DNA of 64,000 bases from Comamonas denitrificans. Its GTDB lineage: Bacteria; Pseudomonadota; Gammaproteobacteria; Burkholderiales; Burkholderiaceae_C. Below are positions 30,501-44,716 of this stretch, one piece after another. The DNA lies in contig NZ_JAFNME010000010.1 of assembly GCF_017368815.1 (NCBI RefSeq), positions 1 through 64,000 of the forward strand. The letters run 5' to 3'. The number at the start of each line of letters is the position of its first letter. Within the stretch, counting starts at the first letter, position 1. The position numbers and the translations under genes were made by a program. Under the pieces are notes generated by a model that searched no databases, was not told the DNA's origin, and saw nothing but the letters and a program-made list of their open reading frames with translations.

Positions 30501-30547
30501 TGGCCCGCCTGGCTGGACTCGAACCAGCTACCTATTGCTTAGAAGGC
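30501..30547 (-). other. Displaced 3' half of tRNA-Arg (left attachment site)
   Basis: Read on the minus strand this is a tRNA 3' half: anticodon-loop side, variable region, T arm and acceptor with CCA. It has no 5' half. Its inner 19 bases (30529-30547, TACCTATTGCTTAGAAGGC on the plus strand) are identical to 44668-44686 in the intact tRNA-Arg. The T arm differs from that of the intact gene by paired changes. This is what integration into a tRNA gene leaves behind, so it marks the left junction. Confidence 0.88.
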
Positions 30548-30604
30548 CATGGAATGAGCGTGCAACCTATTGAAATAGAGCTGTTTTTTTAAAAAAATGT
30601 GTTA

Positions 30605-30625
30605 TTGTCACCCCGTTGTCACCCG
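30605..30625 (+). repeat. Left-end TTGTCACCC direct repeats
   Basis: TTGTCACCCC (30605-30614) and TTGTCACCCG (30616-30625) lie 11 bp apart between the left attachment site and the integrase. The same boxes with the same 11-bp spacing occur at the right end (44538-44558). They may be arm-type integrase sites or operators of the integrase gene. Confidence 0.75.
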
Positions 30626-30644
30626 AGAATGAGGATTCTAAAAA

Positions 30645-31649
30645 ATGCCAACGGTCAGAAAAAGAGGCGATTTGCAGTGGCAAGCAATCGTGAAAAGACA
30701 AGGGATCGGCTTTGCCTCCAAGACCTTCACCACAAAAAAAGATGCCGAGGCCTGGGCAAAAATTACTGAAGCTGAGATGCTGCGCGGGGCTTACATTTCG
30801 AGGCGAGACGCGGAAAAAATAACTCTTGCTGAGTGCATAGAGCGCTACAAAAAAGATGTGCTGCCGGGTCTGCGGGGCGTGGGCCATGAATACATCCTGG
30901 CGCGGCTCGCGGAAGCCTTCGGAAAACTCGCGCTGGCACATATCACCCCCGCCAAGGTCGCCGCACATCGTGATGCGCGGTTGCGTGCTGGGCGCAGCCC
31001 CAGCACGGTTAAAAAGGAGTTGGCCAAGCTCTCCGTTATTTATAAACTGGCCGGCCAGGAATGGGGCATTGCCGGGCTTGAGAACCCGGTTTTGAATGTG
31101 TCCAGGCCAAAAGAAAAAAACAGCCGCACCAGGCGGCTAGAGAATGGAGAGCTGGAGAAGCTGCTGGCGGCTGCGCCCAAGCCTGTCGAGTTGCTCATCC
31201 GCTTGGCGCTTGAAACTGCGGCGCGGCTGGGTGAGCTGCTGGCCCTGGAGTGGCGCGATGTGGACAGCGCCCGGCGCGTGGCCCTGCTGCGTGGCGTTGG
31301 TGGGCGTGGGACGAAGAACGGGGACGATGTGAGGGCTGTTCCCCTCTCCAGCGCTGCCCTGGTCGTCCTGCAGGAGCTGCAGGCGCTACCCCTGAGCATT
31401 GACGGGCGCGTTTTTTATTGGTGGGCCGGTTCCGATAGCTTTAACAAGCCATGGGCGCGGCTTTGTAAAAAAGCGGAAATCGAGGATTTGCGATTCCATG
31501 ACCTACGCCATGAGGCAACCTCGCGCCTATTTGAAAAAGGGGTTTTCGAGGGCGTGGAAGTGGCCGCAATCACCGGGCACAAAACGCTGCAGATGCTCAA
31601 GCGCTACACCCACTTGAGGGCGGCGGATCTGGCGCAGAAGCTGGGCTAG
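30645..31649 (+). CDS. int: Tyrosine recombinase integrase
   Basis: Site-specific recombinase expected to integrate and excise the element at tRNA-Arg. The 334-residue protein has a short N-terminal arm-binding region, a SAM-like core-binding domain (about 60-150) and the catalytic domain. Catalytic residues are Arg194 (ETAARLGELLAL), Lys224, His285 and Arg288 (HDLRHE), His312 (TGHKT) and Tyr321 (KRYTHL), so the set is complete. GAGG precedes the ATG. It lies about 100 bp inside the left junction and reads into the element. Confidence 0.95.
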   Translation: MPTVRKRGDLQWQAIVKRQGIGFASKTFTTKKDAEAWAKITEAEMLRGAYISRRDAEKITLAECIERYKKDVLPGLRGVGHEYILARLAEAFGKLALAHITPAKVAAHRDARLRAGRSPSTVKKELAKLSVIYKLAGQEWGIAGLENPVLNVSRPKEKNSRTRRLENGELEKLLAAAPKPVELLIRLALETAARLGELLALEWRDVDSARRVALLRGVGGRGTKNGDDVRAVPLSSAALVVLQELQALPLSIDGRVFYWWAGSDSFNKPWARLCKKAEIEDLRFHDLRHEATSRLFEKGVFEGVEVAAITGHKTLQMLKRYTHLRAADLAQKLG

Positions 31650-31677
31650 GCCAATGGATGCAGCAACGTGCTGGGCG

Positions 31678-31854
31678 TCATCGTTCGGCGGCTTGTTTTA
31701 GTGCCTTTCGGATGCCGTCACTGACGTTGCCGTTGCCCAGCTTTGCCGCGATGGCAAGACTTTCGGCATCCAGATAGACCTGAACGCGCTTGCCGCCGAC
31801 ATCGGCCGGGCGGCCAACGGGGCGCTTCTCCGGGGGCTGTTTAGTGTCTGGCAT
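31678..31854 (-). CDS. Small ribbon-helix-helix DNA-binding protein
   Basis: A 58-residue protein whose basic N-terminus (EKRPVGRPADVGGKR) is followed by a CopG/Arc-like beta strand VQVYLDAES and two helices ending VSDGIRKALKQAAER. This is a typical antitoxin or plasmid regulator size. The start ATG at 31854 overlaps the preceding gene by 14 bp. It is the last gene of the module behind the palindromic promoter at 32412-32455, which makes autoregulation plausible but unproven. Confidence 0.7.
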   Translation of the reverse strand: MPDTKQPPEKRPVGRPADVGGKRVQVYLDAESLAIAAKLGNGNVSDGIRKALKQAAER

Positions 31855-32083
31855 TGCGAGCCTCGATATAGATGTCGCCGGCTTCACGGGCGACACGCGC
31901 CGCTTGCAATATGTGCACCGGCAACAGTGGAGATGGCTGCTCGATACACTCGCCATCGAATGCGCCCGGCTCGCCATCAACGGGAGAGAACTTGAATACC
32001 CAGCCATCACAGTGAGTAGCTGTTGCGGATTCAATGTCGATGGACCAGCGAGAACGCCAGCCACGATTAGGGTGATTTGCCAT
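31841..32083 (-). CDS. Hypothetical 80-residue protein
   Basis: I do not recognise a named family. The protein is 80 residues with a Trp/Arg-rich start (GWRSRWSIDIES), a central acidic portion and a helical C-terminus (ILQAARVAREAGDIYIEA). GAGGA precedes the ATG with good spacing, and the gene overlaps the ribbon-helix-helix gene by 14 bp, supporting expression as a pair. A toxin role next to an RHH protein can be imagined, but nothing in the sequence shows it. Confidence 0.6.
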   Translation of the reverse strand: MANHPNRGWRSRWSIDIESATATHCDGWVFKFSPVDGEPGAFDGECIEQPSPLLPVHILQAARVAREAGDIYIEARNARH

Positions 32084-32095
32084 GTAATCCTCGAT

Positions 32096-32119
32096 AAAAA
32101 AAAAGCCCCTTTCGGGGGC
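32096..32119 (-). terminator. Terminator between the two genes at 32126 and 32083
   Basis: On the minus strand GCCCC (32119-32115) pairs with GGGGC (32109-32105) around a 4-base loop and runs into nine U residues (32104-32096). It stops transcription after the 73-residue gene and only 13 bases before the next start codon, so it may act as an attenuator for the downstream pair. Confidence 0.82.
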
Positions 32120-32125
32120 GATTTG

Positions 32126-32347
32126 TTATTCAGGGCGCGGGCCACGCGTAGCTTTCGGCTTATTCAGCCACGCAAGCTGTTCGCGCTCCAGTCTAGTCGA
32201 TTCATGGTGAGTAGCCATTCCGGCGCTGAACCCTTCGTCGTAATCTCGACGGCTCTGACCACCAGCCTTGCGATTGGCTGGCTTGTAGTTATTTGTGCTG
32301 CCGTAGTTGTTTCCATGGTTGAAGCCGATTTCGTAGGACTTGCTCAT
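32126..32347 (-). CDS. Hypothetical 73-residue protein
   Basis: A small hydrophilic protein rich in Asn, Gly, Tyr and Arg (FNHGNNYGSTNNYKPANRK) with DYDEGFSAGMATHHES in the middle. I do not recognise it. GGAGAAG lies before the ATG at 32347. It is the first gene after a near-consensus promoter with a palindromic operator and is followed directly by a strong terminator, so it is probably the most highly expressed gene of this end of the element. Confidence 0.6.
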   Translation of the reverse strand: MSKSYEIGFNHGNNYGSTNNYKPANRKAGGQSRRDYDEGFSAGMATHHESTRLEREQLAWLNKPKATRGPRPE

Positions 32348-32411
32348 TTTCTTCTCCAGCCCCTGTTATCCCCGAGGCGCGGTTGGTAGCGATGTGCTAT
32401 CCATGGACTTA

Positions 32412-32455
32412 ATTATATACACACAAAACTAGGTGTCAAGCATTTTGTGTGTATA
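32412..32455 (-). promoter_or_regulatory. Sigma-70 promoter overlapped by a 13-bp palindromic operator
   Basis: On the minus strand TTGACA (32439-32434) and TATAAT (32417-32412) are spaced by 16 bp. Both are perfect consensus hexamers. Inverted arms of 13 bp (32416-32428 and 32443-32455; core ATACACACAAAA / TTTTGTGTGTAT) are separated by 14 bp. They cover the -10/spacer and the region just upstream of -35. A dimeric repressor bound here would block the promoter of the 32347 gene. Confidence 0.88.
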
Positions 32456-32576: not shown

Positions 32577-33050
32577 CTAGTGCAGCCACAGGTGCGGGCA
32601 ATGTCTGCCGGACAACTTGTCGGGGCCCCTGGTAATCTCGACCTCGCCCGCTACCACGCGGCAAAACGACGCATCAAAAACCAGCCGCTGGCCTGGCTGG
32701 GGCACCTCCAGAACCTGGCCGAGGGGGTGGAGCAGATGGCAATACGTGATCCAGCGCTGCAGGCGGTACGCAGCCCCGGTCTTGACGATCTGCCGCGTTT
32801 GGCATACGCCATCGCCCCCAGGGTCTGGTACATCAAGATCGCGCGGTTGGAGCCCCTGGGCGATGGCCTGCCAGCTCAGGCCTGGTAGCCAGAGGGGCCA
32901 GCCGTGCAAAACGGCCATATCGACCCCACAGCATTCGAACCCGCTGACGCTGGCCGGGGTGCGCCGGGCCAGCAGCACCCGCCCAAGGAACCGGCGGCGG
33001 GCCAGCTCAACGGCGGTCACGCCGGGCAAAAGCTCAAAGGCGACAGGCAT
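32577..33050 (-). CDS. Hypothetical 157-residue protein
   Basis: I do not recognise a family. The protein starts MPVAFELLPGVTAVELARRR and has several Cys/Trp/His positions (GFECCGVDMAVLHGWPLWLPG, and a C-terminal HCPHLWLH). The start ATG shares its A with the TGA of the preceding gene (TGATG), a translational-coupling arrangement, and that is the main support for reality. GC content is high compared with the element's mobility genes. Confidence 0.55.
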   Translation of the reverse strand: MPVAFELLPGVTAVELARRRFLGRVLLARRTPASVSGFECCGVDMAVLHGWPLWLPGLSWQAIAQGLQPRDLDVPDPGGDGVCQTRQIVKTGAAYRLQRWITYCHLLHPLGQVLEVPQPGQRLVFDASFCRVVAGEVEITRGPDKLSGRHCPHLWLH

Positions 33051-33394
33051 CACTTCTTACCGCCCTCTCTCCAAGCGTTGCGCACGGGCTCGGGTTTGGT
33101 TTTTTTAGAGTCGCGGCCCACTGCGTAAACGTTTTGACCTGCTTTTGGTGGTGGCGGTGGTGGTGGTGATTGAAAACCGCCGGTGCCCCCCGTCGTCATG
33201 GTCTTCGCTCTGCTGGCGGCGCTCCCACCAGCACCAGCAGCACCAGGAGGAGGGGGAGGGGGAGGGGTGCCCCCGCTGGGGGCCCCAGTGGTCTTACTGG
33301 CTGCGCTGGCGGCACGGCCAGCAATTGCGTTTTTGGCGGCTTTGGCAGGAAGGCCAATAGAGGCGAGAGTTGCTATTTTTCCAAAAAGTCCCAT
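33050..33394 (-). CDS. Hypothetical proline-rich small protein
   Basis: A 114-residue protein with a short amphipathic start (MGLFGKIATLASIGLPAKAA), a low-complexity Ala/Gly/Ser linker with two polyproline runs of seven residues, and a basic C-terminus. AAGGAG stands 10 bases before the ATG. It is the middle gene of a three-gene operon (33686 to 32577). Polyproline runs suggest a need for EF-P in translation and possible interaction with SH3-like partners; function unknown. Confidence 0.65.
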   Translation of the reverse strand: MGLFGKIATLASIGLPAKAAKNAIAGRAASAASKTTGAPSGGTPPPPPPPGAAGAGGSAASRAKTMTTGGTGGFQSPPPPPPPKAGQNVYAVGRDSKKTKPEPVRNAWREGGKK

Positions 33395-33410
33395 TTTTAT
33401 TACTCCTTTT

Positions 33411-33686
33411 TTAGTTGCTGGTGAATTGGTGGGCGTGAAGGCGCAGCATTGTTGTTTTATCTTTTAAATTAAGAGAGTTCCATTTATAAATTTCATAAAT
33501 TCCCGCATCCTCTAGTAATTTCCCGGCTTGGGCGGCGGCGGCTTCAATGGCGTGATCGCGGCTGGGAAATAATACTTCGTCTGGGAAATCGTGAAATGAA
33601 AAATAATACCAATCGTTATCAGTTTTCCAAAAATAAAAACCCACGCCAATTAGAGATTCTTCAAGTTTTTTATTAACGAGATTCAT
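33411..33686 (-). CDS. Hypothetical 91-residue protein
   Basis: A small protein with aromatic-rich beta-like stretches (GVGFYFWKTDNDWYYFSFHDFP) followed by a helical segment (RDHAIEAAAAQAGKLLEDAG). I do not recognise it. The ATG at 33686 begins the compositionally distinct AT-rich part; the frame continues upstream through a GC-rich non-coding stretch, which I exclude. It is the first gene of the 33686-32577 operon, 16 bases ahead of the proline-rich gene. Confidence 0.65.
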   Translation of the reverse strand: MNLVNKKLEESLIGVGFYFWKTDNDWYYFSFHDFPDEVLFPSRDHAIEAAAAQAGKLLEDAGIYEIYKWNSLNLKDKTTMLRLHAHQFTSN

Positions 33687-33689
33687 GAT

Positions 33690-33897
33690 ATTTTTTGTTC
33701 CTAAGCGGTTGAAAAATTGGCTGTTTGGCTGTCCGAGGGCGTGCCCCCTTGGGGGCTGGCCCTGGATGTTTGCCAGTCTCGAAGAGTCTGGCGGCTGTTT
33801 GCGATAGGGATCGTTAGGCGGCTTCGCCGCTCGAAACCCCGCAGGGGGTTCGACCCGCAGGGCCAGAGCCCGGGCCGAAGGCATCGCCCGAGAATCT
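33690..33897. other. GC-rich intergenic region with inverted repeats
   Basis: About 200 bp with no gene I can support. It contains GCCCCC/GGGGGC, GGCGGC/GCCGCT and an ACCCC/GGGGGT hairpin. The 16-mer GGCTGTTTGGCTGTCC (about 33718-33733) recurs at about 41401-41416. GC content jumps sharply relative to genes on either side. It may be a remnant or a cis-acting site of the element. Confidence 0.5.
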
Positions 33898-34083
33898 TCA
33901 TTTAACCCCCTGCGAATCAATTAATTTATTAATTTGCTGCACATGCTCCACCTGCTCGGGCGTGTCATTTGATCGGCTAATAAACACAATTAACGCCAAA
34001 GTAATGACCACTGAATAAAAAAAGAAAAAAGTTAATGCCCCGCCTAAAGTGACTTTTGCCAATGCGCTCATAAGTTTTTCCAT
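33898..34083 (-). CDS. Small single-pass membrane protein
   Basis: A 61-residue protein with one long hydrophobic segment (LTFFFFYSVVITLALIVFI) at about residues 16-34 and a charged C-terminal tail. AAGGGTC precedes the ATG. It follows the relaxase gene but is separated by a terminator and by a conserved hairpin leader (34110-34152) also found before another small membrane gene at 40818. The role is unknown; entry exclusion or helper-system interaction are possibilities only. Confidence 0.6.
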   Translation of the reverse strand: MEKLMSALAKVTLGGALTFFFFYSVVITLALIVFISRSNDTPEQVEHVQQINKLIDSQGVK

Positions 34084-34313: not shown

Positions 34314-37300
34314 TCACATTTCCATTTCTCTGCCCTTGCTGGGGGTTGGTGCTGGTGCTGGTGCGGGCGTGGGGGTCGGCGTTGGCGTGGGGGCTGCTGT
34401 GGCCCCTTGACTGGCCTTGCCCTCAAGGGCTGCACGTGTGGCCTCTCGAAGCTGGGCGGCCTCATGGGCGGCTCCCAGCTTCGCCCTGATCGCCTCCTGC
34501 GTGGTGGCCTTGCGGAAGCCTTCGGCGTTGAAGCTTTTATAAATGTTGTCCTGGGCCTTGGCCCAGGCCTTGGCGGCGCTGCCGGTTTCCTTGCTGTTCA
34601 TGCGCTGGCGCAGCTCGTCCCGATCCCGGCCCGCCATGCGCTGGCCGGTGGTTTCGCGGCTGATGAGCACCTCGGTTTTTTGGCCAACTTTGAACCCCAA
34701 AACCTTTACATCACGTTGCACCAGGGTCGCGGTTTTGGTCGTCATGCCCAGGGTTTTGGCCTGGCGTAGCTGCACCTGGCGGGGGCCTGCGCCGTGTAAG
34801 CCCTGGTGATAGGTGCGCCCGTCCTTGTATTGCAAGTAGCGCTCCCCCTGGCTATCGAATTTGTAGCTGGCCTTGCCTTTTTCGATGTCCTTGGCAATCT
34901 TGGCGGGCGTGGGCATTTTGCCCTTGGTGTCGAGGGCTGACCTGGCAAGCTGTGCGTCTTTCGTGCGTTCTGTGTGGCTGCGGCGGTCTGGTTTTTGCTC
35001 TTGTGCGCGATCCTGGAAACGTGGCCCAAGCTGTTCGCGGATGCCCTGGCCCAAGGCCTTCAGCGGGTCGGGGTGGCGGGCCTCAAGTGCCCGGCGCTGC
35101 TCCTGGCCGTAGGCCTTGGCCTGGGCTTCTTGGCGTTCCGCGAACCTCTCCCAGCTCTCTTGAGCGGTGGCGGGGGCTGGCTCTTTTTGGAGTTCTTGGG
35201 TAGCGGGTTTGCCCTGTTGCTGGTCTGCAAGCCGGTCGCGGCGGTTTTCCACGGCTTCGGCTACCAGGTGCGCGGCCTCCAGCCTCTCGCTGGCGCGGTC
35301 GATTTGGCCCTCATCGCCAAAGCGCTGGGCGTGGTCGTACTCGGCCTTTGCGGCCTTCAGCTCCTCGGCGGCGCTCTTTGCGTCACGCTCGATCTGCTCG
35401 GCGCTGTCCCGGCTCTCCCGGTCGTTGCCTGGCCCTGCATCAGCCTGCTGATAGTCTGTTGAGCTGTCCTTGTCCCGGTTGCGACTCATTTCGGATTTCA
35501 GCTCGTCGCGCTGGGCCTGGGTGTGGTGGTAGCTCATGCTTTCGCGGTGGCGCGATGCCCCCACGTAGGCCAAGCTGCGGTCGGTCATTGCGGAATCGTG
35601 CGCTATGTGAGCACGATCAACAGTTACGCCCTGGCTTTTGTGGACGGTCGCGCCATAGGCGTGGTCGATCGCCTGGTACTGCTTTTCGGTAATCTTGACC
35701 TCCCGCCCGGTTTCGTCCTGGCGAAGGGTCAGGCGGCCTTCGGCGGCGGCTGTGACCTGCCACGTTTGGCCGTTTTTCAAATCGAGAGAACGATCATTTT
35801 TTAGGGTAATTACCCGATCACCCACGGCGAAATTTTTAGTTTTTTCTGTGGCCTCTTTGCTGGTTTTTGTTTTGAATGTGTGGTCTTCCCCCTTCAAAAG
35901 CCCCTTTTCTCGCGCCATCTCCCGCGCGGCGTTATTGATAGCCGCAACATCTGCCCGTCGGCCAGCAAGGGCAATACTTGTTTTGCCCTCGGCCAAATCT
36001 TTGACCACCTCGCCCGCCATGGCCTGGCGCAGCTTCTCGGGGTCGGCGTGTTCCCTTAAATACCCTTGCTTTTCCATTATTTCGATTGCCCGGCCTGCCT
36101 GGCCATCCTTGAGGGCGTGAACCATCTCACGGTCGGGGGCGGCGTGCTGCCGCCGGATTTCGTCGATTTTGGCGGTGGCGGCGCTGGCTGCCCCCATTGA
36201 TCGCATCGCGCCACCTGCGTCAATAGGCTGGAGCTGCCGGGTATCGCCCACCAGTACCACCTTGGCCCCGGCGGCCTGGGCTCGATCGGTTAGCTTGGCC
36301 ATCAGGCGGCTGCCTGTCATGCCCGCCTCGTCCACGACCAAAACGGACTTTTCATTTAATTGCAGCTCGCCTTTGTCGATTTTGTTAATGGTGCTGTGAA
36401 TGGTGTCGCTGGCAATGCCGCTGCCCTCGGCAAGCCCGGCGGCGGCTTTGCCCGAGGGAGCGCAGCCAAAAACTTGACTACCGCCAGCCTCCCAGGCCTC
36501 GCGGGCTGCGCCTAGCATGTAGGACTTGCCAGCCCCGGCTACACCTTCAACCACGGCAAAATTGTTTTTGCTGTCGGTAATCGTTTTTAAACAATTTGCC
36601 TGCTGGGTTGATAATTCTTTTTTCTCAATAATTGATTCCACGTCGGCGGCGTGGGCCTGGCTTGGCCCCCTGGATTCTTTAAAAGCGTAGCTGTGCAAGT
36701 CTTTTTCGATTTCCAGCATTTCGCGCGAAGTCCAGCGTTCTCCTCCCTCCTGGTCGTAGAGTTTGACCAGCTCGCCCGAGTTCTCCAGCTCGCGCAGCTC
36801 TTGCAAAGCGCTGCCAATATCCTGCCCGGTGATTTGCGCACGTTCAAACGCTGCGCGGTGTAGCTGTGTTTGAGTTAGCGTGCTGGCCTGGTCAAAGGCG
36901 GTGGCGGTTAAGGGCTGGATTTCTTTTTCTGCAGGCTGGCGGTTCAAAAGGTCTTCGGTTTTGAAATTGTGTTTTGTAGCCGTTTCCTTAGCCAAATTAA
37001 AAGCCTCTTCGCGTGGTTTTTCTGTTTTTTTATCGCGGGTTTCGACTTGGTGAATATCTCGGGCTTTTTCCGATTTCATCCCGGTTTTTGCTTCGCGTTC
37101 GGCAATTTGGGCTGAACGAGTGGATAACTCTTTTTCTAAATCTTTTGAAAAACCCTCGATGCGGAAAGATTTCCCGTCTTGCTCAATTGAAAACCCCATT
37201 TTCTCCAGCTCTCGCGCCATTTCCACGCGATAAGCTGTTCCAATTGCGTGGGTGTGGGCGGCCCGGAAATCTACCCGTTTGCCATTATCTGAGACATTTA

Positions 37301-37841
37301 AAACAACTGCATGGGTGTGCAAATGCGGTTCACCTGCCCTATTAGAACTGTGCTCAAAAGTGGCTGCAGCAATTTCTCCGTGGGCGACTTTAAATTCTCC
37401 TGCGTGGCCTTCCCGCTGAACAAATGCGCCGGATTGCTCGGCATATTTAAGAGCTGATTCAATGGCCTTTTGGTGGGCGGCGCTAATCTGTTTTTGCAAT
37501 TCCGGCGGTGCGCTGGCCCATGCGATAGAAACCGATTTTGGAGCGCTAAAAGTTAAATCATAGCCCGGTTTATGTCGTTCGTCCCCGGCGTTATTAGAAA
37601 GTGCCTGACCTGTTTTTGGGTCAAACCCTCTTAGGCCACGCTGCATTTCCCCTCGATGAACTAATTCATTAGCAAAACCGCGTTTTTCTGCATAGCTTCC
37701 AATCCATTTACCCATTGGCTCATCATGCTGGCGAGTGGTTTCTTTTTCATTTGGATTTTCTTTGCCCAGCTGATAGCCTTCATAATATGCGGCGATTTTG
37801 GAAACCCCGCCTTCGGCATTAATACTTTTAAAAGACAGCAT
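34314..37841 (-). CDS. MobF relaxase/helicase (TrwC/TraI-like)
   Basis: Conjugative relaxase that nicks oriT, stays covalently bound to the 5' end and unwinds the plasmid strand. The 1175-residue protein has N-terminal tyrosines Tyr19-Tyr20, three-histidine metal motif at His173, His175 and His177 ([11 protein letters not shown]), a RecD-like helicase with Walker A GVAGAGKS (433-440), Walker B DEAG (504-507) and GDTRQLQPI, and a long Gln/Glu-rich C-terminus ending in about 10 Thr/Ala-Pro repeats. AAAGGA precedes the ATG. It is last in an operon after the RHH and 77-residue genes. Naming it trwC or traI is a class-level analogy. Confidence 0.94.
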
Positions 37842-37843: not shown

Positions 37844-38077
37844 TTAATCCTTTACTTTCTCTTTTAAAACCTTTTTAATAATAGGTTCTAAATCGTCAAT
37901 GGTTAATTTGTGTTTTTGCAAGATATTTAAAACTTTTTCTGCCCGGCCTTCTTTCTCGGCTTTCATTTTGATTTTATATCTCTGGATTTCTATATCTAAT
38001 AAATGGGCCTGATATATCAAATCATCGCGTTTTCGGGCAACTGCATTTAAATCGTCGAAGGAAATAATTTTGTTCAT
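37844..38077 (-). CDS. Small helical protein upstream of relaxase
   Basis: A 77-residue, Lys/Glu/Ile-rich, probably coiled-coil protein ([40 protein letters not shown]). AGGAT precedes the ATG at 38077 and only short gaps separate it from its neighbours (RHH gene upstream, relaxase downstream). It resembles the oligomerisation part of H-NS-like proteins in length and charge, but no DNA-binding tail is present. An accessory role in relaxosome formation is an inference from position. Confidence 0.6.
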
Positions 38078-38080: not shown

Positions 38081-38587
38081 TTAAATCCTGGGAGCTTTAG
38101 GAAAATTGGCTTTTGTTTCGTCGGAAATTTTTCCAAAAATATTTATATTCGTTGGGTCAGGCCAAACCTTATAAATTAAATAATAACGGTTTGCCAAGCG
38201 AATTAAGAAATTTAATTCGGTTTCCCCTGGTTTCTGAATACTGCCCTCGACCGCATCCCGGGCTCGATATTCTCGAAAGGAGGGGACGCGCAGAAACTCG
38301 CCCAGGTTCTGAACCAGCGCGTTAAAAGATTCTGCGGCCTGGGCCTGGGCGGCATTCATTTCTTCTTGCTGGGTTTTCAGCGCTGCAATATCAGCCTGGA
38401 GAATGGATAAATCGGGCGCTGGCGCGGTTTCAGCGGTTGGGCTAGGGGTACCCACAGGGGCAGGCGCTCCGAACGCTACAGCGCGTAAATAATCGCTACG
38501 CGATAGCCCCAGGGTTTTACAGATGCGGTCGATTTCGCGGGCTTCTTCTTGGGTTGCGCGAAATTTTAGATATTCGGTTTTAATCAT
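38081..38587 (-). CDS. Ribbon-helix-helix mobilization accessory protein (TrwA/MobC-like)
   Basis: A 168-residue protein with an N-terminal RHH domain: strand TEYLKFRATQEEAREIDRIC and helix KTLGLSRSDYLRAVAFG, then a Pro-rich linker, a coiled-coil stretch (ADIAALKTQQEEMNAAQAQA) and a C-terminal domain. MobC and TrwA proteins of this type bind oriT and assist the relaxase. The ATG at 38587 follows GGAAGGAAT. It lies just next to the candidate oriT and ahead of the relaxase. The class is clear, the exact family is not. Confidence 0.75.
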   Translation of the reverse strand: MIKTEYLKFRATQEEAREIDRICKTLGLSRSDYLRAVAFGAPAPVGTPSPTAETAPAPDLSILQADIAALKTQQEEMNAAQAQAAESFNALVQNLGEFLRVPSFREYRARDAVEGSIQKPGETELNFLIRLANRYYLIYKVWPDPTNINIFGKISDETKANFPKAPRI

Positions 38588-38611
38588 TTTTTTGATTCCT
38601 TCCGTGTCACG

Positions 38612-38761
38612 CGGAAACCCGCATGGCTGTTGGGTTTTGGCCGTTTTAGGCCGTTTTTGTGGTCTGGCCGTGGCCCGCCTGTGCCACCCGGAAACCCGCA
38701 TGGCTATTGGGCGCGGCGGTTATGCACCCCTCACCCCTGGTGGGTAGGGTGCGGGCTTTTT
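38612..38761. other. Candidate origin of transfer (oriT)
   Basis: A 236-bp gap between the coupling-protein gene and the RHH gene holds two 23-bp direct repeats (38612-38634 and 38689-38711, 22 of 23 identical, beginning CGGAAACCCGCATGGCT). It also holds an imperfect hairpin GCACCC/CACC...GGTG/GGGTGC (38724-38752) followed by GGGCTTTTTG. The GGGTGCGGGCTTTT stretch recalls the nick region of F-type MobF plasmids (GGGTGT-GGTGCTTTT). The position next to relaxosome genes fits. No plus-strand gene ends here, so a plain terminator is less likely. Confidence 0.5.
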
Positions 38762-38816: not shown

Positions 38817-38823
38817 CGAACAT

Positions 38824-40539
38824 TTAGAAATCTCCTTCCATACCCGGTGGCAAATCGCTATCAGAAATGTTATTAACCTCGGCCTGTTTTGTTTCTGCCA
38901 TCACTTGAATAGCTGGTTTGATTTTGATTGCCTCCCGGGTGGCTTGCTCAAAAGTGGTGGCGGTTTGGGGGCGGTTCACTGGCTCCAGCAAAATCGGGGC
39001 AGCAGGAATAGAACCGGCGAAATTCAGAAAGCCATGTAAGGTTTCCAGATTCTGTAGTTCACCTGGCAAGACAATGCGATCATTGGTAATCTGCTGCTGC
39101 CAATTCTCGTTTTTGGATTTTGAGCCGAAAACTTGCTGAAAGGATTTGTTTTCGCTTTCCCCGCCACTTGCGACGATGCGGCTAATCTGCGCCTCCCCGA
39201 GTAATCGGCTCATAACGTCCGAAGTTTCCGGATCTGGGACGCGGAAAACGACCTGGCTGGAGCAGTTAGCCAAAATGGTGTGGGCTTCTGCGCGTGTATA
39301 AGGAATTTCTAATTGGGAAACGGTTTGAAGGCCAAGAATTGCACGGCCCCCGTTTTTACGGGCTTTCGTTAGAAAATCGAGAATTGAGCCAATACGGCCC
39401 AGGCTGGCGAATTCGTCAATGATCATCCAGAATTTGCGAGTTTTTGATTCTTCCATTGACAAAATGGTTTTGCTGATAATGTCGGCCATGGCCGCGATAA
39501 TTGGCTTTAATGTTTCTAATTGATCGTCGCGAAAGTTGAAAAATAGCCAGCCCTTGGCTTTGTCAGACGAAACAATATCTTTTAGAGAGAAACCATTCTC
39601 TACCCCTGCGGCTGCCTCCAGGTATTGGAAGGGGCTGATATAACGCCCGACGATGGCGCGAACACTGCCAAACATCCGCTCGTTACCCTCTTCGGCAAAC
39701 GGCTGCGCAGGAGTGCCCGCGAAAATCTCGCGTAACTCCTTAATATCTGCAACGGTTGCCAATTTGAAAATATCGGCATTGGTCAAATTGTTTTGCCAGC
39801 AGTGTTTTAAAATCGCAGAAACAATTGTTTGTGCATATCCGTTCCATTCTGCGCTCGACCCCTCCGCGTCCGGGATAATAGATTTAGCGATTTGATCAAC
39901 GTCCCAAACCGATTTAATTTCGGCCAAAGGTGACCAATTAATAGCGCGAGAATCCAAGGGATTCAAGATTAAATCGTGGCGCTCTTCGTTGTAGTAGGCT
40001 TTTAAGAAGTTGCCTCCAGCATCGGAAAGAAAAACACGATCACCACGCGCTGCAATGCCGTCTAAAACCTCGCAAATCGCCACCGATTTGCCTACCCCTG
40101 TGGAGCCAGCAATTAGAAAATGCAGGGCTTCTAAACGCTCGGGGATTTTTTGACTGCCTATTGTCAAATCACCTTCTTCTTTTTTGAGAATTTTTTGTAA
40201 TTGTTTACCAGTTACCAAACGCGCCCCGCGTAAATGACCGTTATCGTTTTCTGATTCACCATTACTGAAAAAACTAAATACGCCTTCTAAAATGGTTGAA
40301 AACCGATGATAAATAATCGTGCCGATATTAATAAAAATAAAACCTAATAATGAATTGCCAATAAATGTATTAATTACAAATTCTTCTTTTCCCGTAAATG
40401 CAGAACTCGCGCCCACTAAGGCACCCGCGATAAAAAACCGGCCAAGGTACACGCCAAAACGGCCAAAACGGCCTCGGGAAATGAACCACGCACCAGCACA
40501 AATAATTGCAGAAATTGCAAATAAAAAGAAATTAATCAT
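38824..40539 (-). CDS. Type IV coupling protein (TrwB/TraD-like)
   Basis: Inner-membrane hexameric ATPase that delivers the relaxase-DNA complex to a type IV secretion channel. The 571-residue protein has N-terminal membrane segments (about 1-20, 33-48 and 57-77), Walker A GSTGVGKS at 145-152, Walker B WMIIDEF at 371-377, and the family stretches HFLIAGSTGVGKS, GGRAILGLQTVSQL and CSSQVVFRVPD. AAGGAGT stands 9 bases before the ATG. It is relatively AT-rich. With no secretion genes on the element, this coupling protein must pair with a channel encoded elsewhere. Confidence 0.93.
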   Translation of the reverse strand: MINFFLFAISAIICAGAWFISRGRFGRFGVYLGRFFIAGALVGASSAFTGKEEFVINTFIGNSLLGFIFINIGTIIYHRFSTILEGVFSFFSNGESENDNGHLRGARLVTGKQLQKILKKEEGDLTIGSQKIPERLEALHFLIAGSTGVGKSVAICEVLDGIAARGDRVFLSDAGGNFLKAYYNEERHDLILNPLDSRAINWSPLAEIKSVWDVDQIAKSIIPDAEGSSAEWNGYAQTIVSAILKHCWQNNLTNADIFKLATVADIKELREIFAGTPAQPFAEEGNERMFGSVRAIVGRYISPFQYLEAAAGVENGFSLKDIVSSDKAKGWLFFNFRDDQLETLKPIIAAMADIISKTILSMEESKTRKFWMIIDEFASLGRIGSILDFLTKARKNGGRAILGLQTVSQLEIPYTRAEAHTILANCSSQVVFRVPDPETSDVMSRLLGEAQISRIVASGGESENKSFQQVFGSKSKNENWQQQITNDRIVLPGELQNLETLHGFLNFAGSIPAAPILLEPVNRPQTATTFEQATREAIKIKPAIQVMAETKQAEVNNISDSDLPPGMEGDF

Positions 40540-40551: not shown

Positions 40552-40818
40552 TTATTTCTTGAAAATCAAAACAAATGGGCCAAAACTGCCAACCAAAAAA
40601 CCGAAAATTGAGCTTAAATAAAAGCTTTTAAGGCCTTCTGCGTATTCTGGGTTTGCAAATAGCTCTTTAAAAAAGAATATGTAATAATCAAAACCGGCGA
40701 TTTTCCAATGCAGGTGATTTTGAATAAAGATAATGGGGCCGATGATCGCGCCCATGAAACCGAGAATTAAGGCCCATTTCAAAATCCAGCCAATTTCGCG
40801 TGCTTCTTGCTTTGCCAC
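40552..40818 (-). CDS. Small inner-membrane protein upstream of coupling protein
   Basis: An 88-residue protein with two hydrophobic segments (ILKWALILGFMGAIIGPIIF and FYLSSIFGFLVGSFGPFVLI) around a polar loop. It starts at GTG 40818, preceded by AAAGGAAACC; the frame upstream runs through a terminator and the iteron region and is not coding. The coupling-protein gene begins 12 bases after its stop. A membrane partner of the coupling protein is the likeliest role from position; I know no named family. Confidence 0.65.
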   Translation of the reverse strand: MAKQEAREIGWILKWALILGFMGAIIGPIIFIQNHLHWKIAGFDYYIFFFKELFANPEYAEGLKSFYLSSIFGFLVGSFGPFVLIFKK

Positions 40819-40835
40819 TTTGGTTTCCTTTCTCA

Positions 40836-40879
40836 CGGCGAAAAATGCCGCTCCCCCTCCTTCTGCGTTTCGCGGACAT
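40836..40879 (-). promoter_or_regulatory. Hairpin leader element, copy 2
   Basis: Second copy of the element at 34110-34152: the ends are the same (GCGAAA/TTTCGC pair at 40838-40843 and 40868-40873, then ATGTCC on the minus strand), AGGAGG is in the centre, and an inner CGC/GCG pair replaces the GCTGA/TCAGC stem. It lies 18 bases ahead of a small membrane protein start and abuts a terminator on its upstream side. Confidence 0.65.
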
Positions 40880-40903
40880 AAAAAAACCCAGCGGTGTGCT
40901 GGG
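40880..40903 (-). terminator. Terminator directly upstream of leader copy 2
   Basis: On the minus strand CCCAGC (40903-40898) pairs with GCTGGG (40892-40887), followed by seven T residues. It precedes, rather than follows, the 40818 gene, and no gene ends just before it. This suggests a short RNA or an attenuator between the iterons and the gene. Confidence 0.82.
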
Positions 40904-40944
40904 CGTGGGGGTGGCGATGCCGTGGGCATGGGAGTCGGTTGTAG

Positions 40945-41012
40945 ATATCCGAATCGGATATGCAATAGCGCTATCGGATATGCAATAGCGCTATCGGATA
41001 TGTATTAGTGCA
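40945..41012. repeat. Iteron-like tandem repeats with palindromes
   Basis: Three head-to-tail 20-bp units begin at 40953, 40973 and 40993. The first two are identical (ATCGGATATGCAATAGCGCT) and the third is diverged at its end. The first is entered through the palindrome ATATCCGA-A-TCGGATAT (40945-40961), and ATAGCGCTAT palindromes sit at the joints. The arrangement resembles initiator or regulator binding sites. Confidence 0.85.
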
Positions 41013-41922
41013 AAGCCTTACAGGCCGCGCCTAGGGCGCTCCTCGACGGCGGGGCGTGCCGCCCCCCGGCCCCCCTCTGGGCTGCGCCCCCTGCGCACCT
41101 TCGGCGCGTGGGCCCCTGCATGCGGCTGGACATTGAAGGGGAGGGCACCAGGCGGCGGCGGTGGTGATGGTGGTGATGGTGGTGATGGTGGTGGTGATGG
41201 TGGTGGTGATGGTGGTGGTGGTGGTGATGGTGGTGATGGTGATGGTGGTGATGGTGGCGTTCTGACGGCTTCGCCTTGCCTTCTGCTAGTTGGCATAACA
41301 GCCGGGGCCCGTGGCCGGGAGGCCACAGGGGGCGCAGCCCTGGGGGTCTGGGGGGCGCAGCCCCCGCAGTCCGGGAGCGCCCTAGGCGCGGCGGGTACGG
41401 CGGCTGTTTGGCTGTCCCAAAGAGGAATTTTTTAAAAATTGGTAGCAGGCGCTGGCGGTGGGCAACGCGCAGCGTTGTCCACGGACGAGCCTGGGATGTT
41501 TTGCAGCGAAGGCGGTGGGCAGACCTGCGTACCGCGCTTGCGCGGCAGTGCCCAGGCTTGCCCTGGGTGCTGGCAGGTTGTCCATGGTCGTAGCGGGCCA
41601 TCGGGCGCAGCGGTGCCGGGCTGGGCGTTAAAACCGCCCCCCAGCGCGTTTTAAGGGCTGGGGGGATGGCTACCCCTGGGCGTGGCTCTTAAAACCGCGT
41701 GGCGGCTGTTTTGGTGGCTTTCGTGATCTTTCTCTCGTGGGCGCGTGCGCGTAACCCTTGCGAAGAGATGTTTTGTTATTTCTTTTCTTTGTTATTTCTT
41801 AGGCTGCTGTTTTCCAGGTCTGCAAAATCCAGGACTGCAAAACAGCATTGTGGTGAATTGACTCCAAAGTATTGCAGGTATTAGCAATGATGCTATTGTT
41901 TGAGTAGCGTTTTTTGGCGCGA
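41013..41922. other. 900-bp non-coding GC-rich region with microsatellite
   Basis: I support no gene here. It holds a GGTGAT/GGTGGT microsatellite (about 41151-41258), GGGGGCGCAGCCC-type palindromic stretches (about 41320-41395), the 16-mer shared with 33718, and a CCCCCCAGC/GCTGGGGGG hairpin (41637-41665). Frames through the microsatellite would encode poly-His or Gly-Asp runs and have no ribosome sites. It lies between the replication module and the mobility genes, so an origin of replication is possible. Confidence 0.6.
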
Positions 41923-41948
41923 AAAAAAAGCCAGCGTGGTGCTGGCTT
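41923..41948 (-). terminator. Terminator of the replication operon
   Basis: On the minus strand AGCCAGC and GCTGGCT pair around ACCAC and lead into eight T residues. It is separated from the P-like gene stop by a 50-bp tract of GGTGCTGGTGTT tandem repeats (about 41949-42000). Confidence 0.88.
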
Positions 41949-42000
41949 TGGTGCTGGTGCTGGTGTTGGTGCTGGTGTTGGTGCTGGTGTTGGTGCTGGT
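41949..42000. repeat. 12-bp tandem repeat tract
   Basis: About four copies of GGTGCTGGTGTT lie between the P-like gene stop and its terminator. Similar GGTGCTGGTGCT tracts encode the Thr/Ala-Pro tail of the relaxase near 34345, so this may be a decayed coding tail or a slippage-prone tract. Confidence 0.7.
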
Positions 42001-42563
42001 TATGCCTGTGCGGCGGAGAACTGTTTTTTTATGGCCGAAGCCTCTTTTTCTCCTATCATTTTTATAGCGCACCGGATGTCGTCAGCTCTTGTTTTGTGGC
42101 CTAAATAGAACCGTGCGAGTTTTATTCGCCAATTGTCCAAGCCATCACCGCGACTTGTTATTTTTGGTGCGGCGCAGGCGATCATTTTAATGATCTGCGG
42201 ATTTTTAATTGCTTTATCATCATTTGCTTTTTGAATTTTTAATTCTTCACATTTTTTTATAAAATGGCCTAAATTTGGCGGATAATTTAAATTTTCAAGC
42301 TGAATTTTCTTGGTTGCTTTTTCTATAACATCATCCTCATAATTATTTAAGCTGCGATCCCAAACCAATAATGCTGCACGCATCCCTTTATCGCTTCCCT
42401 CGGAATTTAATTCGCCTGTGCTGAATTTACTTGTAAATAAAGAGCCGTAACTTGCATGAAAAATCATAAATAATTTTCTTGTCCTGGCTGAAACCTCAAG
42501 TTTTTGCTGTGCGGTGGCCTTGATTTCTTGAGCTGTGAAATTTGAAATGTTGTGCATTTTCAT
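42000..42563 (-). CDS. Lambda P-like replication protein (helicase loader)
   Basis: A 187-residue protein with the outline of phage replication protein P: FMIFHASYGSLFTSKFSTGE, ALLVWDRSLNNYEDDVIEKA and LENLNYPPNLGHFIKKCEEL, where the W...L...YPP-F--C pattern is typical. Such proteins recruit the host DnaB helicase to an origin. The gene is AT-rich. Its ATG overlaps the preceding stop as ATGA, and a strong terminator follows. The call rests on pattern recognition and would benefit from a profile match. Confidence 0.65.
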   Translation of the reverse strand: MKMHNISNFTAQEIKATAQQKLEVSARTRKLFMIFHASYGSLFTSKFSTGELNSEGSDKGMRAALLVWDRSLNNYEDDVIEKATKKIQLENLNYPPNLGHFIKKCEELKIQKANDDKAIKNPQIIKMIACAAPKITSRGDGLDNWRIKLARFYLGHKTRADDIRCAIKMIGEKEASAIKKQFSAAQA

Positions 42564-43219
42564 AAGTCTATGTCTCCGAAAATTGCTTTTGCAGCGCCGT
42601 TGTTTTTGTTAAAACTTGATGCCTTAGTTACTCTTTGCGTTTTGGCTTTAAAATCATTTGCTTTATGCAGCCATGATTTAAAAATTGATTGCCAATCTTT
42701 ATATTGGCTGCCTACTCCTGTGTAATAATCAATAAATTTTGTAATTTCTTGATTTATATTTAAGCCATAATCTTTAGCGAGATTTATTGCGGAATCCCCT
42801 GGTTTAAAATCAGGCGGGATGGGTTTTTTTGTATCTGCTGCAGGCCTTGTTTTTGTTGGCGCTGGCGCTACAATTTTTGACTTTGCCTTTGCCTTTGCCC
42901 ATGAAGCATTTTCCGGATCATCTGTTATATGCCATATTGTTTTAACAAATTCTCCGTGGTCGCCTCTCTCTTTTTCAATATATAAATAGCCTGAATTTTC
43001 AAGTTCCTGAAGACCTGCGCGAGTGCTTCTTTCACCATCTGTTTTCTGATGTGATAAATGTTTTAAATTGAAACTCCAGCCGTCCGCCATACTCAGCATG
43101 TAACAAAGTAGGCCTGTTGCTTTCCAGCTCAAATTTTTATTACGCAGCAATGCGTTTTTGATGATGGTAAAATGACTGCTGCTGGCATAATTTTTAATCT
43201 CAATATTTGCTTCGCTCAT
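42560..43219 (-). CDS. Replication initiator-like protein with winged helix and DnaT-like C-terminus
   Basis: A 219-residue protein with an N-terminal winged-helix region (LLRNKNLSWKATGLLCYMLS, then RSTRAGLQELENSGYLYIEK) of the kind found in phage O-type and plasmid initiators. A Lys/Ala/Pro linker follows, then a C-terminal domain (FIDYYTGVGSQYKDWQSIFK SWLHKA region) resembling the DnaT/primosomal DNA-binding fold. ATGA overlaps join it to genes on both sides. With the P-like gene it makes an O/P-type replication pair. Confidence 0.68.
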   Translation of the reverse strand: MSEANIEIKNYASSSHFTIIKNALLRNKNLSWKATGLLCYMLSMADGWSFNLKHLSHQKTDGERSTRAGLQELENSGYLYIEKERGDHGEFVKTIWHITDDPENASWAKAKAKSKIVAPAPTKTRPAADTKKPIPPDFKPGDSAINLAKDYGLNINQEITKFIDYYTGVGSQYKDWQSIFKSWLHKANDFKAKTQRVTKASSFNKNNGAAKAIFGDIDL

Positions 43220-43608
43220 GCCGCTTCCCCCCCGAAAAAGTCACCCTGGCCGGTGGCTTTTTTCTTTTGCGCGGCGATCACGCGCCGCGCGTGGCGCGTT
43301 GATTTGCCCAGCGCTTTCGCTACACTTTCTGTAAGTTCTCGCTGGCGCTGGCGTTTGCCCACGATGGGCTGTGGCCTGGCTGATTCGTCATCTGCAACGA
43401 GGTCGAAGGCCTGGGCCTCCTCGCTAAGGCGGCTGCAATTGCGCATAAAGTTGCGCACGTTTGAACGTGCTTTTTTTAGAGCATCCGCAAGGGTCAGTTG
43501 CTCCCCTTTTGCTAGCGCCTCATAGAAAATGAGTGCTGCCGTTTGCTGGAGCTCTTGCGACTCAAAGCTATCGGTTTTGCGCGTGAAAATGCTGGGGGCG
43601 GTGGTCAT
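43216..43608 (-). CDS. Hypothetical basic protein of the replication operon
   Basis: A 130-residue protein with a helical middle (LADALKKARSNVRNFMRNCSRL) and a basic helix-turn-helix-like C-terminus (TESVAKALGKSTRHARRVIA) ending KKKATGQGDFFGGEAA. I do not recognise it. It is coupled by ATGA overlaps both upstream and downstream, so it is certainly part of the four-gene operon 43949-42000. DNA binding is plausible from charge. Confidence 0.62.
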   Translation of the reverse strand: MTTAPSIFTRKTDSFESQELQQTAALIFYEALAKGEQLTLADALKKARSNVRNFMRNCSRLSEEAQAFDLVADDESARPQPIVGKRQRQRELTESVAKALGKSTRHARRVIAAQKKKATGQGDFFGGEAA

Positions 43609-43949
43609 GCTGCACCCCCTTTGCCTTGGGCCTGCTGGGCTGCTGCGGCCTCCTTGGCCTGCTGGCGCTCAAGCTGTTCTCGCTTGGTGGGGCGGCCTTG
43701 GCGCTTTTTGACCGGCGCAGGTGCGGGCTGTTTTTGAAACTGACGAAGCCAGTCAAGAACATCTTGCAGTATCCAAAGCGGCTGGCGCGTGCCCGGTGGC
43801 GTGCAACATGGGGGCAGGCGGTGCGGTGCGCGGACGCGGTCTGCAAGAATGACTCCAGGGCTTTTATGCAAAAGCACAGAGAGTTCGGTAACGCCCAGGA
43901 CGGGCGGCAAGTAGCTGCCGGTGACAGCATCAAAGTTTTGAAATTCCAT
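43605..43949 (-). CDS. Helix-turn-helix/excisionase-like protein
   Basis: A 114-residue protein whose first 70 residues resemble a small winged-helix excisionase or AlpA-like regulator: PPVLGVTELSVLLHKSPGVI, then PPGTRQPLWILQDVLDWLRQF. A Lys/Gln/Ala-rich tail follows. It is first in the operon and its ribosome site lies inside a perfect hairpin (43952-43974). It could serve as recombination directionality factor for the integrase or as operon regulator; the sequence does not decide. Confidence 0.6.
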   Translation of the reverse strand: MEFQNFDAVTGSYLPPVLGVTELSVLLHKSPGVILADRVRAPHRLPPCCTPPGTRQPLWILQDVLDWLRQFQKQPAPAPVKKRQGRPTKREQLERQQAKEAAAAQQAQGKGGAA

Positions 43950-43951
43950 TT

Positions 43952-43974
43952 CCTCGACTCCGAAGAAGTCGAGG
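43952..43974 (-). promoter_or_regulatory. 8-bp hairpin burying the ribosome site of the 43949 gene
   Basis: CCTCGACT and AGTCGAGG (43952-43959 and 43967-43974) are perfect complements with a 7-base loop. On the minus strand the GAGG of the second arm is the only Shine-Dalgarno candidate, two bases from the AAATG start. Folding would hide it. Confidence 0.7.
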
Positions 43975-44020
43975 CCGCTTGGCTAATGCTGGCGGGGAGA
44001 GGCGGCGCGGCCTCAGTAGC

Positions 44021-44473
44021 TCACCTGCCCACCAGCGTGGCGGCGGGGACTTGAGCGAGGAGGCGAGGGGTTAGGCAGATGCCAGGGGTAGCCCTGGGCA
44101 GCCCAGGGGGGGGTGGTGGCTGCATTAGCAGCAACGAAGCCACGCGATCAAAAGCGGCGGCGATCAAAGAGGACAGCACGGCGATGCTGTCGCCTGTCTG
44201 GTCTTGCTGCTGTTTAAAAAATTCGCCATTCGGGTGGGAGGCCGCACGATTCCTAAAACCGTGTGCGCGTTGCAGGAGCTCTTCCTCGGAAAGAAACAAT
44301 TCTTTATTGATCTCGACCATGCGACGCAGCTCCCGTGTCCAGCGACGGCGGGCGGTTAGCCCAAGTGCTGCAAAGAAGTGGTACTCGTAGTCGGTGCGAG
44401 TCAAAAAACGCACGGCCTTGCCCTGAGCCTTGGGGCCCTTGGCGGGGAGTGCGTCTTTGTCCTTCGGTTGCAT
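44021..44473 (-). CDS. Hypothetical protein at right end of element
   Basis: A 150-residue protein with a basic N-terminus (QPKDKDALPAKGPKAQGKAV), a central helical region (RRRWTRELRRMVEINKELFLSEEELLQR) and a Pro-rich C-terminus ([17 protein letters not shown]). I do not recognise it. The ATG at 44473 is taken, with GGGA just before; a TTG 39 bases upstream is possible. It is transcribed away from the tRNA, behind TGTCACCC boxes that may control it. Confidence 0.6.
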   Translation of the reverse strand: MQPKDKDALPAKGPKAQGKAVRFLTRTDYEYHFFAALGLTARRRWTRELRRMVEINKELFLSEEELLQRAHGFRNRAASHPNGEFFKQQQDQTGDSIAVLSSLIAAAFDRVASLLLMQPPPPPGLPRATPGICLTPRLLAQVPAATLVGR

Positions 44474-44503
44474 GTCCCGATCATACACATAAAGAAAACT
44501 TTT

Positions 44504-44570
44504 GGGTGACAAAAGTTTTGGCCTTTTCCCCTCTGACTTGTCACCCCACTGTCACCCGACGGGGTGACAA
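44504..44570. repeat. Right-end TGTCACCC boxes
   Basis: Four boxes: GGGTGACAA (44504-44512), TTGTCACCCC (44538-44547), CTGTCACCCG (44549-44558) and inverted GGGGTGACAA (44561-44570). The first and last of the cluster form a 10-bp-armed palindrome. The two direct boxes keep the 11-bp spacing seen at the left end (30605-30625). Confidence 0.8.
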
Positions 44571-44639
44571 ACGAAAGAAATCCAAAGTAATCGAAAGAAA
44601 CCGAAAGTCTTGTAAATCGTTGAATTTCTTGGGGAATTT

Positions 44640-44716
44640 TGGCCCGCCTGACAGGGCTCGAACCTGTTACCTATTGCTTAGAAGGCAATTGCTCTATCCG
44701 GATGAGCTACAGGCGG
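44640..44716 (-). tRNA. tRNA-Arg(UCU), rebuilt at the element junction
   Basis: 77 nt including encoded CCA. The acceptor stem CCGCCTG pairs with CAGGCGG, D arm AGCTC...GAGC, anticodon loop CTTCTAA (anticodon TCT), T arm ACAGG-TTCGAGC-CCTGT, discriminator G. The 5' half is chromosomal; the 3' half, from about 44686 down, belongs to the integrated element. The displaced original 3' half is at 30501-30547. Confidence 0.93.

Follow-up and report, generated by a model that had tools for sequence, protein, structure and literature searches.

A predicted integrative and mobilizable element of Comamonas denitrificans with a MobF relaxase, its own coupling protein and a phage-type replication pair

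The DNA analysed in this study, hereafter the window, is a stretch of 64,000 nucleotides from Comamonas denitrificans, positions 1-64000 of contig C2 in an assembly of 3.0 Mb and 74 contigs. At 30.5-44.7 kb it holds a unit of 14,139 bp, inserted in a tRNA-Arg(TCT) gene, that carries a tyrosine integrase, a MobF relaxase, a TrwB-like type IV coupling protein (T4CP), a ribbon-helix-helix (RHH) relaxosome protein and a replication gene pair of the O/P type. No secretion channel was recognised in it. We conclude, with a probability of roughly 0.8, that the unit is an integrative and mobilizable element (IME), which uses the channel of a helper through its own T4CP.

The unit is flanked by two copies of a 19-nt core of the attachment (att) site, at 30529-30547 and 44668-44686 (both read on the minus strand). 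Since the core is identical in both copies, the unit length is 14,139 bp, and the element proper is either 30529-44667 or 30548-44686, depending on the choice of core copy. The left core is inside the displaced 3' part of the native tRNA-Arg(TCT) (30501-30547), and the right core is inside a complete, hybrid tRNA-Arg(TCT) at 44640-44716 on the minus strand, the T-arm of which comes from the element. The segment 30501-30550, a partial copy of the 3' part of the tRNA, agrees with its direct repeat at 44640-44689 at 44 of 50 positions, while no more than 30 of 50 positions agreed in any of 200 base-shuffled versions of the window. The 47 nt at 30501-30547 match the 3' part of a congener's tRNA-Arg (L147:7404-7450) without a difference. 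When the element was removed in silico, the right 5' half being joined to the left 3' half, the resultant tRNA-Arg(TCT) was identical at 77 of 77 positions to the uninterrupted gene of the congener G279. The present gene differs from that of G279 at five positions, all of them beyond the core in the part supplied by the element. This is the pattern left when an integrase acts on a tRNA gene and the gene is restored. A chance origin of the direct repeats, named by an earlier, sequence-only reading of this DNA as something that would overturn it, is excluded by the shuffles and the regenerated tRNA. An Rfam scan found two tRNAs only.

The integrase gene (30645..31649, plus strand) gave 79.5 bits with PF00589 (3.2e-22) and matched phrog_1 at 6.8e-63. 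It contains HDLRH and YTH, which we take to be the integrase motifs. An integrase of its own together with flanking att sites is what is expected of an IME, and the integrated, tRNA-Arg-targeting element of the sequence-only reading is thus borne out.

The three transfer genes form one array in one direction, and are compact and open over their whole length. The relaxase-helicase of 1175 aa (34314..37841, minus strand) scored 193.9 bits with the TrwC profile (cut-off 25) and 166.6 bits with the NCBIfam MobF profile NF041492 (cut-off 100). It shows the features of the MOBF family as described in PMC12857230, namely a TrwC domain, a three-histidine motif (HLHTH), a tyrosine pair (YY..Y in motif I) and a C-terminal helicase of superfamily 1 (SF1) with Walker A. 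The best 25 plasmid MobF matches are 27-34% identical to it. The T4CP of 571 aa (38824..40539, minus strand) scored 341.5 bits with PF10412, TrwB_AAD_bind (cut-off 20.5; 7.7e-102), and matched TrwB structures at 1.1e-56. With GSTGVGKS and FWMIIDE as Walker A and B it is a coupling protein of the VirD4/TrwB type. It was not assigned to the F-type TraD proteins, the profile of which (TIGR02759) gave 268.3 bits against an NCBIfam cut-off of 521.35. The NikA-like RHH relaxosome accessory protein (38081..38701, minus strand) scored 35.0 bits with PF21983 (cut-off 27; 1.6e-8); it is 206 aa long from the listed start, and its true start may be internal to the listed open reading frame (ORF). All three assignments made from the sequence alone therefore stood up to profile cut-offs.

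In the relaxase tree the window relaxase stood beside an R388-like group with a support of only 64/80. The T4CP data rejected a clade of the window T4CP with L035-L038 (approximately unbiased test, p 0.005, for a group picked after the first tree was seen). This conflict was considered as proof of module swapping and rejected, because the support of the relaxase placement is too low. A swap is therefore not shown, and a separate exchange of T4CP and relaxase is not settled by the trees.

The replication pair consists of an O-like initiator of 219 aa (42560..43219, minus strand) and a P-like helicase-loader candidate of 187 aa (42000..42563, minus strand). The best PHROG matches of O are replication-initiation families (phrog_4707, 5.6e-19; phrog_428, 1.9e-14), as expected of an O-type initiator; in Pfam, HTH_36 and DnaT were below the cut-off. 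In tblastn O matched 297 phage records at E 0.01 or better, none of which covered 80% of it. Among the 249 other genomes of a family draw (250 genomes, own included), two matched O at E <= 1e-8. In one of them (G088, locus L126), a P homologue directly follows O (45% over 107 aa at 104 bits, against at most 20.8 in 200 shuffles), and the two genes overlap by 4 nt, as in the window. The L126 locus is a lambda-type prophage with a CI-like repressor, the O-like protein, the P-like loader, NinG, a portal and a head protease; its P-like protein matched phrog_109 weakly, at 0.0098. In the other genome (G051, L125) O alone of the pair was found. On the basis of the homology and gene order in L126, the interpretation as a phage-type replication pair stands. 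The AT-rich character noted from the sequence was confirmed, the G+C content being 37.6% for O and P, 52.5% for the element and 60-61% for the flanks.

The pair could also be a stray prophage fragment that does not replicate the element, an interpretation otherwise compatible with an IME. The deviating G+C content, an O gene without iterons and the weakness of P would fit such a fragment. The order, the overlap and both reading frames have been kept, however, both genes lie between the att sites, and the element yielded no recognisable phage structural gene. We consider the stray fragment unlikely, though less so than the alternatives considered below.

For the secretion channel, 16 VirB, Trb and TraC protein queries were run by tblastn (E 1e-3) against the window and the remaining 25 kb of C2. 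The queries comprised VirB2, B3, B4, B5, B6, B8, B9, B10 and B11 of a Collimonas plasmid, four proteins from the genome itself (TrbE, TrbI, TrbL and TraC) and another three of the VirB5/B6 type. None of them matched in either region. A non-self control was matched by six queries only, VirB4, B9, B10, B11, TrbI and TraC (the last weakly, 8e-4). Since the other ten were silent in the controls apart from self-matches, absence by tblastn is claimed for the VirB4, B9, B10, B11 and TrbI types only. For VirB2, B3, B5, B6 and B8 the basis is Pfam scans of the ORFs of the element, in which no channel family appeared. Because these scans cover the element's own ORFs, the narrowed claim leaves the odds of an IME unchanged. 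The element thus has its own relaxase and no recognised mating-pore genes (by Pfam on ORFs only for VirB2, B3, B5, B6 and B8), as an IME should, and the earlier statement that it lacks a secretion channel holds for the contig and the element within these limits.

An integrative and conjugative element (ICE) would carry VirB4 and channel genes. No VirB4 was found in the element, and a search for VirB/Trw genes in the rest of the genome, as the sequence-only reading had proposed, located VirB4-type genes on just two contigs, C9 and C5. On C9 the VirB4-type gene (PF03135) is clustered with VirB9-, VirB10- and VirB11-like matches, and from gene order we take this cluster to be Tn4371-like. The VirB4-type gene on C5 (PF11130) belongs to a locus presumed, likewise from gene order, to be MPF_G/MobH-like. 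Either the C9 cluster, which is of the Trb type, or the C5 locus could serve as the channel for the element. The Trb-type cluster of the type IV secretion system (T4SS) is in G000:C9:25000-44999 (L033), and by our own reading a TraG-like T4CP is present there.

Related elements were found in the same family. At E <= 1e-15 the N-terminus of the relaxase matched 14 genomes of the family draw, and ten were matched by the T4CP at E <= 1e-40, so that a related MobF occurs in 13 of the 249 other genomes. Ten of the 13 neighbourhoods were read (G049, G149, G167, G173, G180, G183, G189, G190, G228 and G237; G027, G110 and G194 were left unread). All ten have a T4CP in the same 12.5-20 kb stretch as MobF, and none has a VirB4-, B9-, B10- or B11-type homologue by tblastn, a search in which VirB5/B6-type genes could be missed. 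In whole-genome searches of the relatives, VirB4 was either on a different contig or 390 kb or more from MobF, and six of the 13 (G110, G149, G173, G180, G189 and G237) have no VirB4 of the two families searched. Since the drafts are fragmented, the distance of VirB4 from MobF is partly unknowable. The sequence-only reading had called the arrangement uncommon. This is not supported for MobF with a T4CP and no VirB4-, B9-, B10- or B11-type gene found nearby, in view of these ten relatives and of the published MobF IMEs of Mesorhizobium (PMC8627217); MobF with T4CP and lambda-type O/P is a combination which looks new.

Two of these relatives are islands at tRNA-His. The island of G189 (L035), of about 13.4 kb with a 17-nt repeat, carries MobF, T4CP, an EcoO109I-type restriction-modification pair and an integrase; that of G190 (L032), of about 10.7 kb with an 18-nt repeat, carries MobF, T4CP and an N6 methylase. 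The G189 island (L035 6337-19773) is in a genome without VirB4 of the two families searched. For L031, which adjoins a tRNA-Pro and has an integrase, no flanking repeat was found. In G149 the same MobF and T4CP region occurs twice (L029 and L030), about 11.6 kb apart, in a tandem array with a recombinase gene and, by our own reading, a CHC2-like primase gene.

In a draw of 399 genomes of the order (own included), nine relaxase matches were obtained at E <= 1e-25, and four of the eight others were fetched. The best whole relative among those fetched is L186 of G652, with MobF 39.6% identical over 888 aa and T4CP 40% over 462 aa. A NikA-like RHH protein (27.8 bits, cut-off 27) is located between them, and the gene order is as in the element. 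With L189 and L190 (58 kb together), L186 gave no tblastn channel match. The L188 locus of G346 holds MobF, a T4CP, a TrbL/VirB6 gene (61.5 bits, cut-off 25.9), a tRNA-Ser and an integrase 46% like that of the element; it is possibly an IME that brings a pore subunit too.

These relatives bear on a second alternative, that the unit is a degenerate ICE or conjugative plasmid whose T4SS genes were lost after integration, the T4CP and relaxase being leftovers. R388-like MobF plasmids do keep a T4CP beside MobF on records that also bear virB genes. The transfer genes of the element are, however, fully open and compact, with no VirB4-, B9-, B10- or B11-type fragment on the contig. All ten family stretches and L186 (58 kb) are likewise without those genes, and the six genomes without VirB4 of the two families searched argue in the same direction. 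Such a degenerate origin is improbable. It is very improbable that the T4CP instead works to defend against or exclude other conjugative elements, for example by jamming a helper channel, in an element that rarely moves. In favour of this, no oriT was identified, no cargo was recognised and the genome has other VirB4-type loci. Against it, the T4CP, RHH and MobF genes are arrayed in one direction, like those of transfer regions, and the catalytic motifs of MobF are intact.

A non-coding island of 1 kb (40966..41999) between terminator-like sites contains tandem repeats of 20 bp, inverted repeats of 60 nt and a GGTGAT tract. It is a candidate only for holding the origin of transfer (oriT), the origin of replication (oriV) or both. 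As single-stranded DNA, 40940-41450 folds far better than 100 shuffles (z = -9.6), though scores of this kind are raised by simple repeats and by arms rich in G+C. With 34 terminator-like sites against 28.6 in shuffles, the region is hardly above expectation. The DnaA-box pattern occurs four times in the 64 kb, with 4.2 expected, and once inside the element, at 32448. A lambda-like ori inside O was not seen.

An IME of this kind could work as follows. The integrase recombines the 19-nt core, which starts in the anticodon arm of the tRNA-Arg(TCT), and the T-arm of the element restores the tRNA, as the sequence shows. The excised circle would be copied by the O-like initiator, which, judging from homology, may use the P-like loader to bring in the replicative helicase of the host. 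The RHH protein and MobF would nick oriT, probably in the 40966-41999 island. The TrwB-like T4CP would then replace the coupling protein of the helper at a resident or incoming T4SS, and the relaxase-DNA complex may exit via the foreign channel.

It is worth noting that several points weigh against this interpretation. We infer its transfer, replication and helper steps throughout, and both oriT and oriV are at candidate level. The channel tblastn was insensitive to VirB2, B3, B5, B6 and B8, as described above. P on its own is weak by profile (G39P-like, 21.1 bits, below the cut-off of 22). The O gene contains no clear iterons, only one imperfect direct pair of 13 nt within 150 nt, and the AlphaFold models of O and P are too poor to help (predicted local distance difference test, pLDDT, 38 and 41). 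In two of the four relatives fetched from the order, G355 (L185, a contig of 8.6 kb) and G354 (L187), MobF was found with no T4CP beside it when the T4CP of the element was the query.

In addition, both chromosomal flanks differ from the usual neighbourhood of tRNA-Arg(TCT) in congeners. In G279 and G286 this tRNA follows what we read as a lipoprotein-like gene, and the upstream DNA is alike in others. The window without the element would have the order fbp, tRNA-Thr, tRNA-Arg, moaA. Its fbp gene shows 94% identity to that of an uncultured Comamonas sp. In 80 named fbp loci, tRNA-Thr is present in 73, and tRNA-Arg and moaA in none; the tRNA-Arg therefore lies elsewhere in the relatives. Upstream of moaA, four of four congeners have other neighbours. 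The atypical flanks (44640-44850 and 30400-30547) indicate that the host chromosome was rearranged at the tRNA or that the contig is misjoined. The 77/77 match is untouched by this, while confidence in a simple history is lowered. Among the matches listed for a genus draw of 53 genomes, no further tRNA-Arg(TCT) of the own genome appeared. In two congeners (L152 of G264, 1036-1367; L157 of G219, 6690-7049), the native tRNA-Arg(TCT) shows in the stretch only as its 5' half. At 0.2-0.3 kb from it both have another tRNA-Arg(TCT), complete and of the same sequence in the two genomes but different from the native one, as if other elements at the site carried a whole replacement tRNA gene.

On the minus strand, counted from the tRNA, the gene order is the 163-, 114- and 130-aa ORFs, O, P, the 1-kb non-coding island, the membrane protein gene, T4CP, RHH, a 77-aa ORF, MobF and small ORFs, with the plus-strand integrase last. 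The 163-aa ORF (44021..44512), which adjoins the att site, and the 130-aa ORF (43216..43608) had no meaningful match in family scans. The product of the 114-aa ORF (43605..43949) matched phrog_6355 (5.7e-8, function unknown) and the excisionase family phrog_66 (0.085), and may, on this weak match, be an excisionase-type DNA-binding protein. For the gene of a small membrane protein that precedes the T4CP gene (40552..40965), only DUF5453 was found, below the cut-off; its true start is probably after the terminator-like site 40904-40886, and a gene of 136 aa occupies the same place in L186. The 77-aa ORF (37844..38077) sits between the RHH and relaxase genes. Three ORFs of 158, 114 and 169 aa as listed (32577..33920) and three small genes of about 58 aa (RHH-like by eye), 80 aa and 73 aa (31678..32347), all on the minus strand, had no family in the libraries tried. 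Ahead of the latter three lies a sigma-70 consensus matched at 12/12 positions, together with an inverted repeat (32409-32462), and the three form a passenger or a regulatory cassette. In the cassette at 31678-32551, this perfect consensus stands together with the inverted repeat as an operator. With a 1.4-kb cassette query, 45% of the length was 82% identical to a Citrobacter freundii plasmid, adjoining an ISL3 transposase gene. Ten of ten element ORFs examined with PADLOC (E 0.01; a set without the integrase, relaxase, T4CP and O) had no defence match, and no cargo gene could be recognised in the element from its sequence.

By megablast, element DNA matched two plasmid records, over 2% and less than 1% of the query length. 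The nearest plasmid T4CP (38.7%) is on a Variovorax replicon without a relaxase nearby. The nearer T4CPs among plasmids belong to MOBP plasmids, and three of these were read whole (L014, L015 and L176). Each has VirB5 together with another T4SS gene, and no VirB4 is entered for them in the PLSDB gene table, which is incomplete. A Collimonas plasmid (NZ_CP009963), typed as mobilizable in PLSDB, was considered as a channel-less MobF plasmid and dropped, its full gene table having virB genes. Peptide-pattern searches with the relaxase in genome contigs gave 58 pattern matches, and those with T4CP or O in viral contigs three each; no relative was among them.

The element is a compact, fully bounded test case for whether an own T4CP alone can re-aim a foreign T4SS, and also for whether IMEs replicate after excision. 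Judging from its relatives, islands that combine MobF with a T4CP of their own recur in the family and escape counts restricted to VirB4-bearing loci. As a speculation, which we hold to be less probable than its negation, Burkholderiales would harbour a broad and largely undescribed class of channel-less MobF islands, in which the T4CP acts as an adaptor that can be exchanged to fit different helper channels and some members keep a VirB6-like part. The present island would then have taken up a lambda-type O/P pair that amplifies the circle before transfer, making a functional hybrid between prophage replication and conjugation.

In R388 the RHH protein, the T4CP and the MobF relaxase are TrwA, TrwB and TrwC. 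The element resembles the transfer region of IncW/R388 in having RHH, TrwB-like T4CP and MobF in one array. Unlike plasmids of that type, which carry virB/trw channel genes, it has none that could be found. The small MOBP plasmids NZ_CP048556 and NZ_CP084549, whose T4CPs are among the nearer plasmid ones (36% and 34%), resemble it in having an incomplete channel as listed. They differ in having a MOBP relaxase, a RepA/ParA replicon, and VirB5 with a further T4SS gene (no VirB4 is listed). The L126 prophage shares O followed by P, the 4-nt overlap and the homologous proteins, but its pair sits among phage head genes, whereas that of the element is among transfer genes.

According to a 2017 review (PMC5704250), a MobF relaxase is absent from every canonical IME known, the IMEs with their own VirD4 are MobC elements of Streptococcus, some IMEs have phage-type replisome organizers, and IME replication after excision had never been studied. 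A 2011 survey counted 402 chromosomal relaxases without a neighbouring T4SS (PMC3158045), and a 2024 marine survey classed contigs with MOBF as mobilizable ICE-type (PMC11104534). In Mesorhizobium, 24 putative MOBF-carrying IMEs were delimited in 2021, and those without traACD carry virD4-like genes (PMC8627217). In titles and abstract openings, mostly outside subscription journals, no MobF IME with T4CP and O/P genes was recognised. Each part is thus known, and the combination of MobF, T4CP and lambda-type O/P looks new as far as this literature shows.

The Mesorhizobium IMEs (PMC8627217) are similar in having a chromosomal MobF and no T4SS of their own, many of them at tRNA genes. Most of them use a Ti-like traACD locus, whereas the present element, from the Betaproteobacteria, has a TrwB-like T4CP, a NikA-like RHH protein and phage O/P. 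The streptococcal MobC IMEs (PMC5704250) differ in using MobC and in belonging to Firmicutes. They also have their own relaxase and coupling protein and no mating-pore genes, and their VirD4 has been proposed to replace the coupling protein of the helper. Tn6104 and streptococcal IMEs with a prophage-type replisome organizer and DnaC (same review) have other relaxases, the streptococcal cases being named as Firmicutes; like the present element, they carry phage-type theta initiation genes within an IME.

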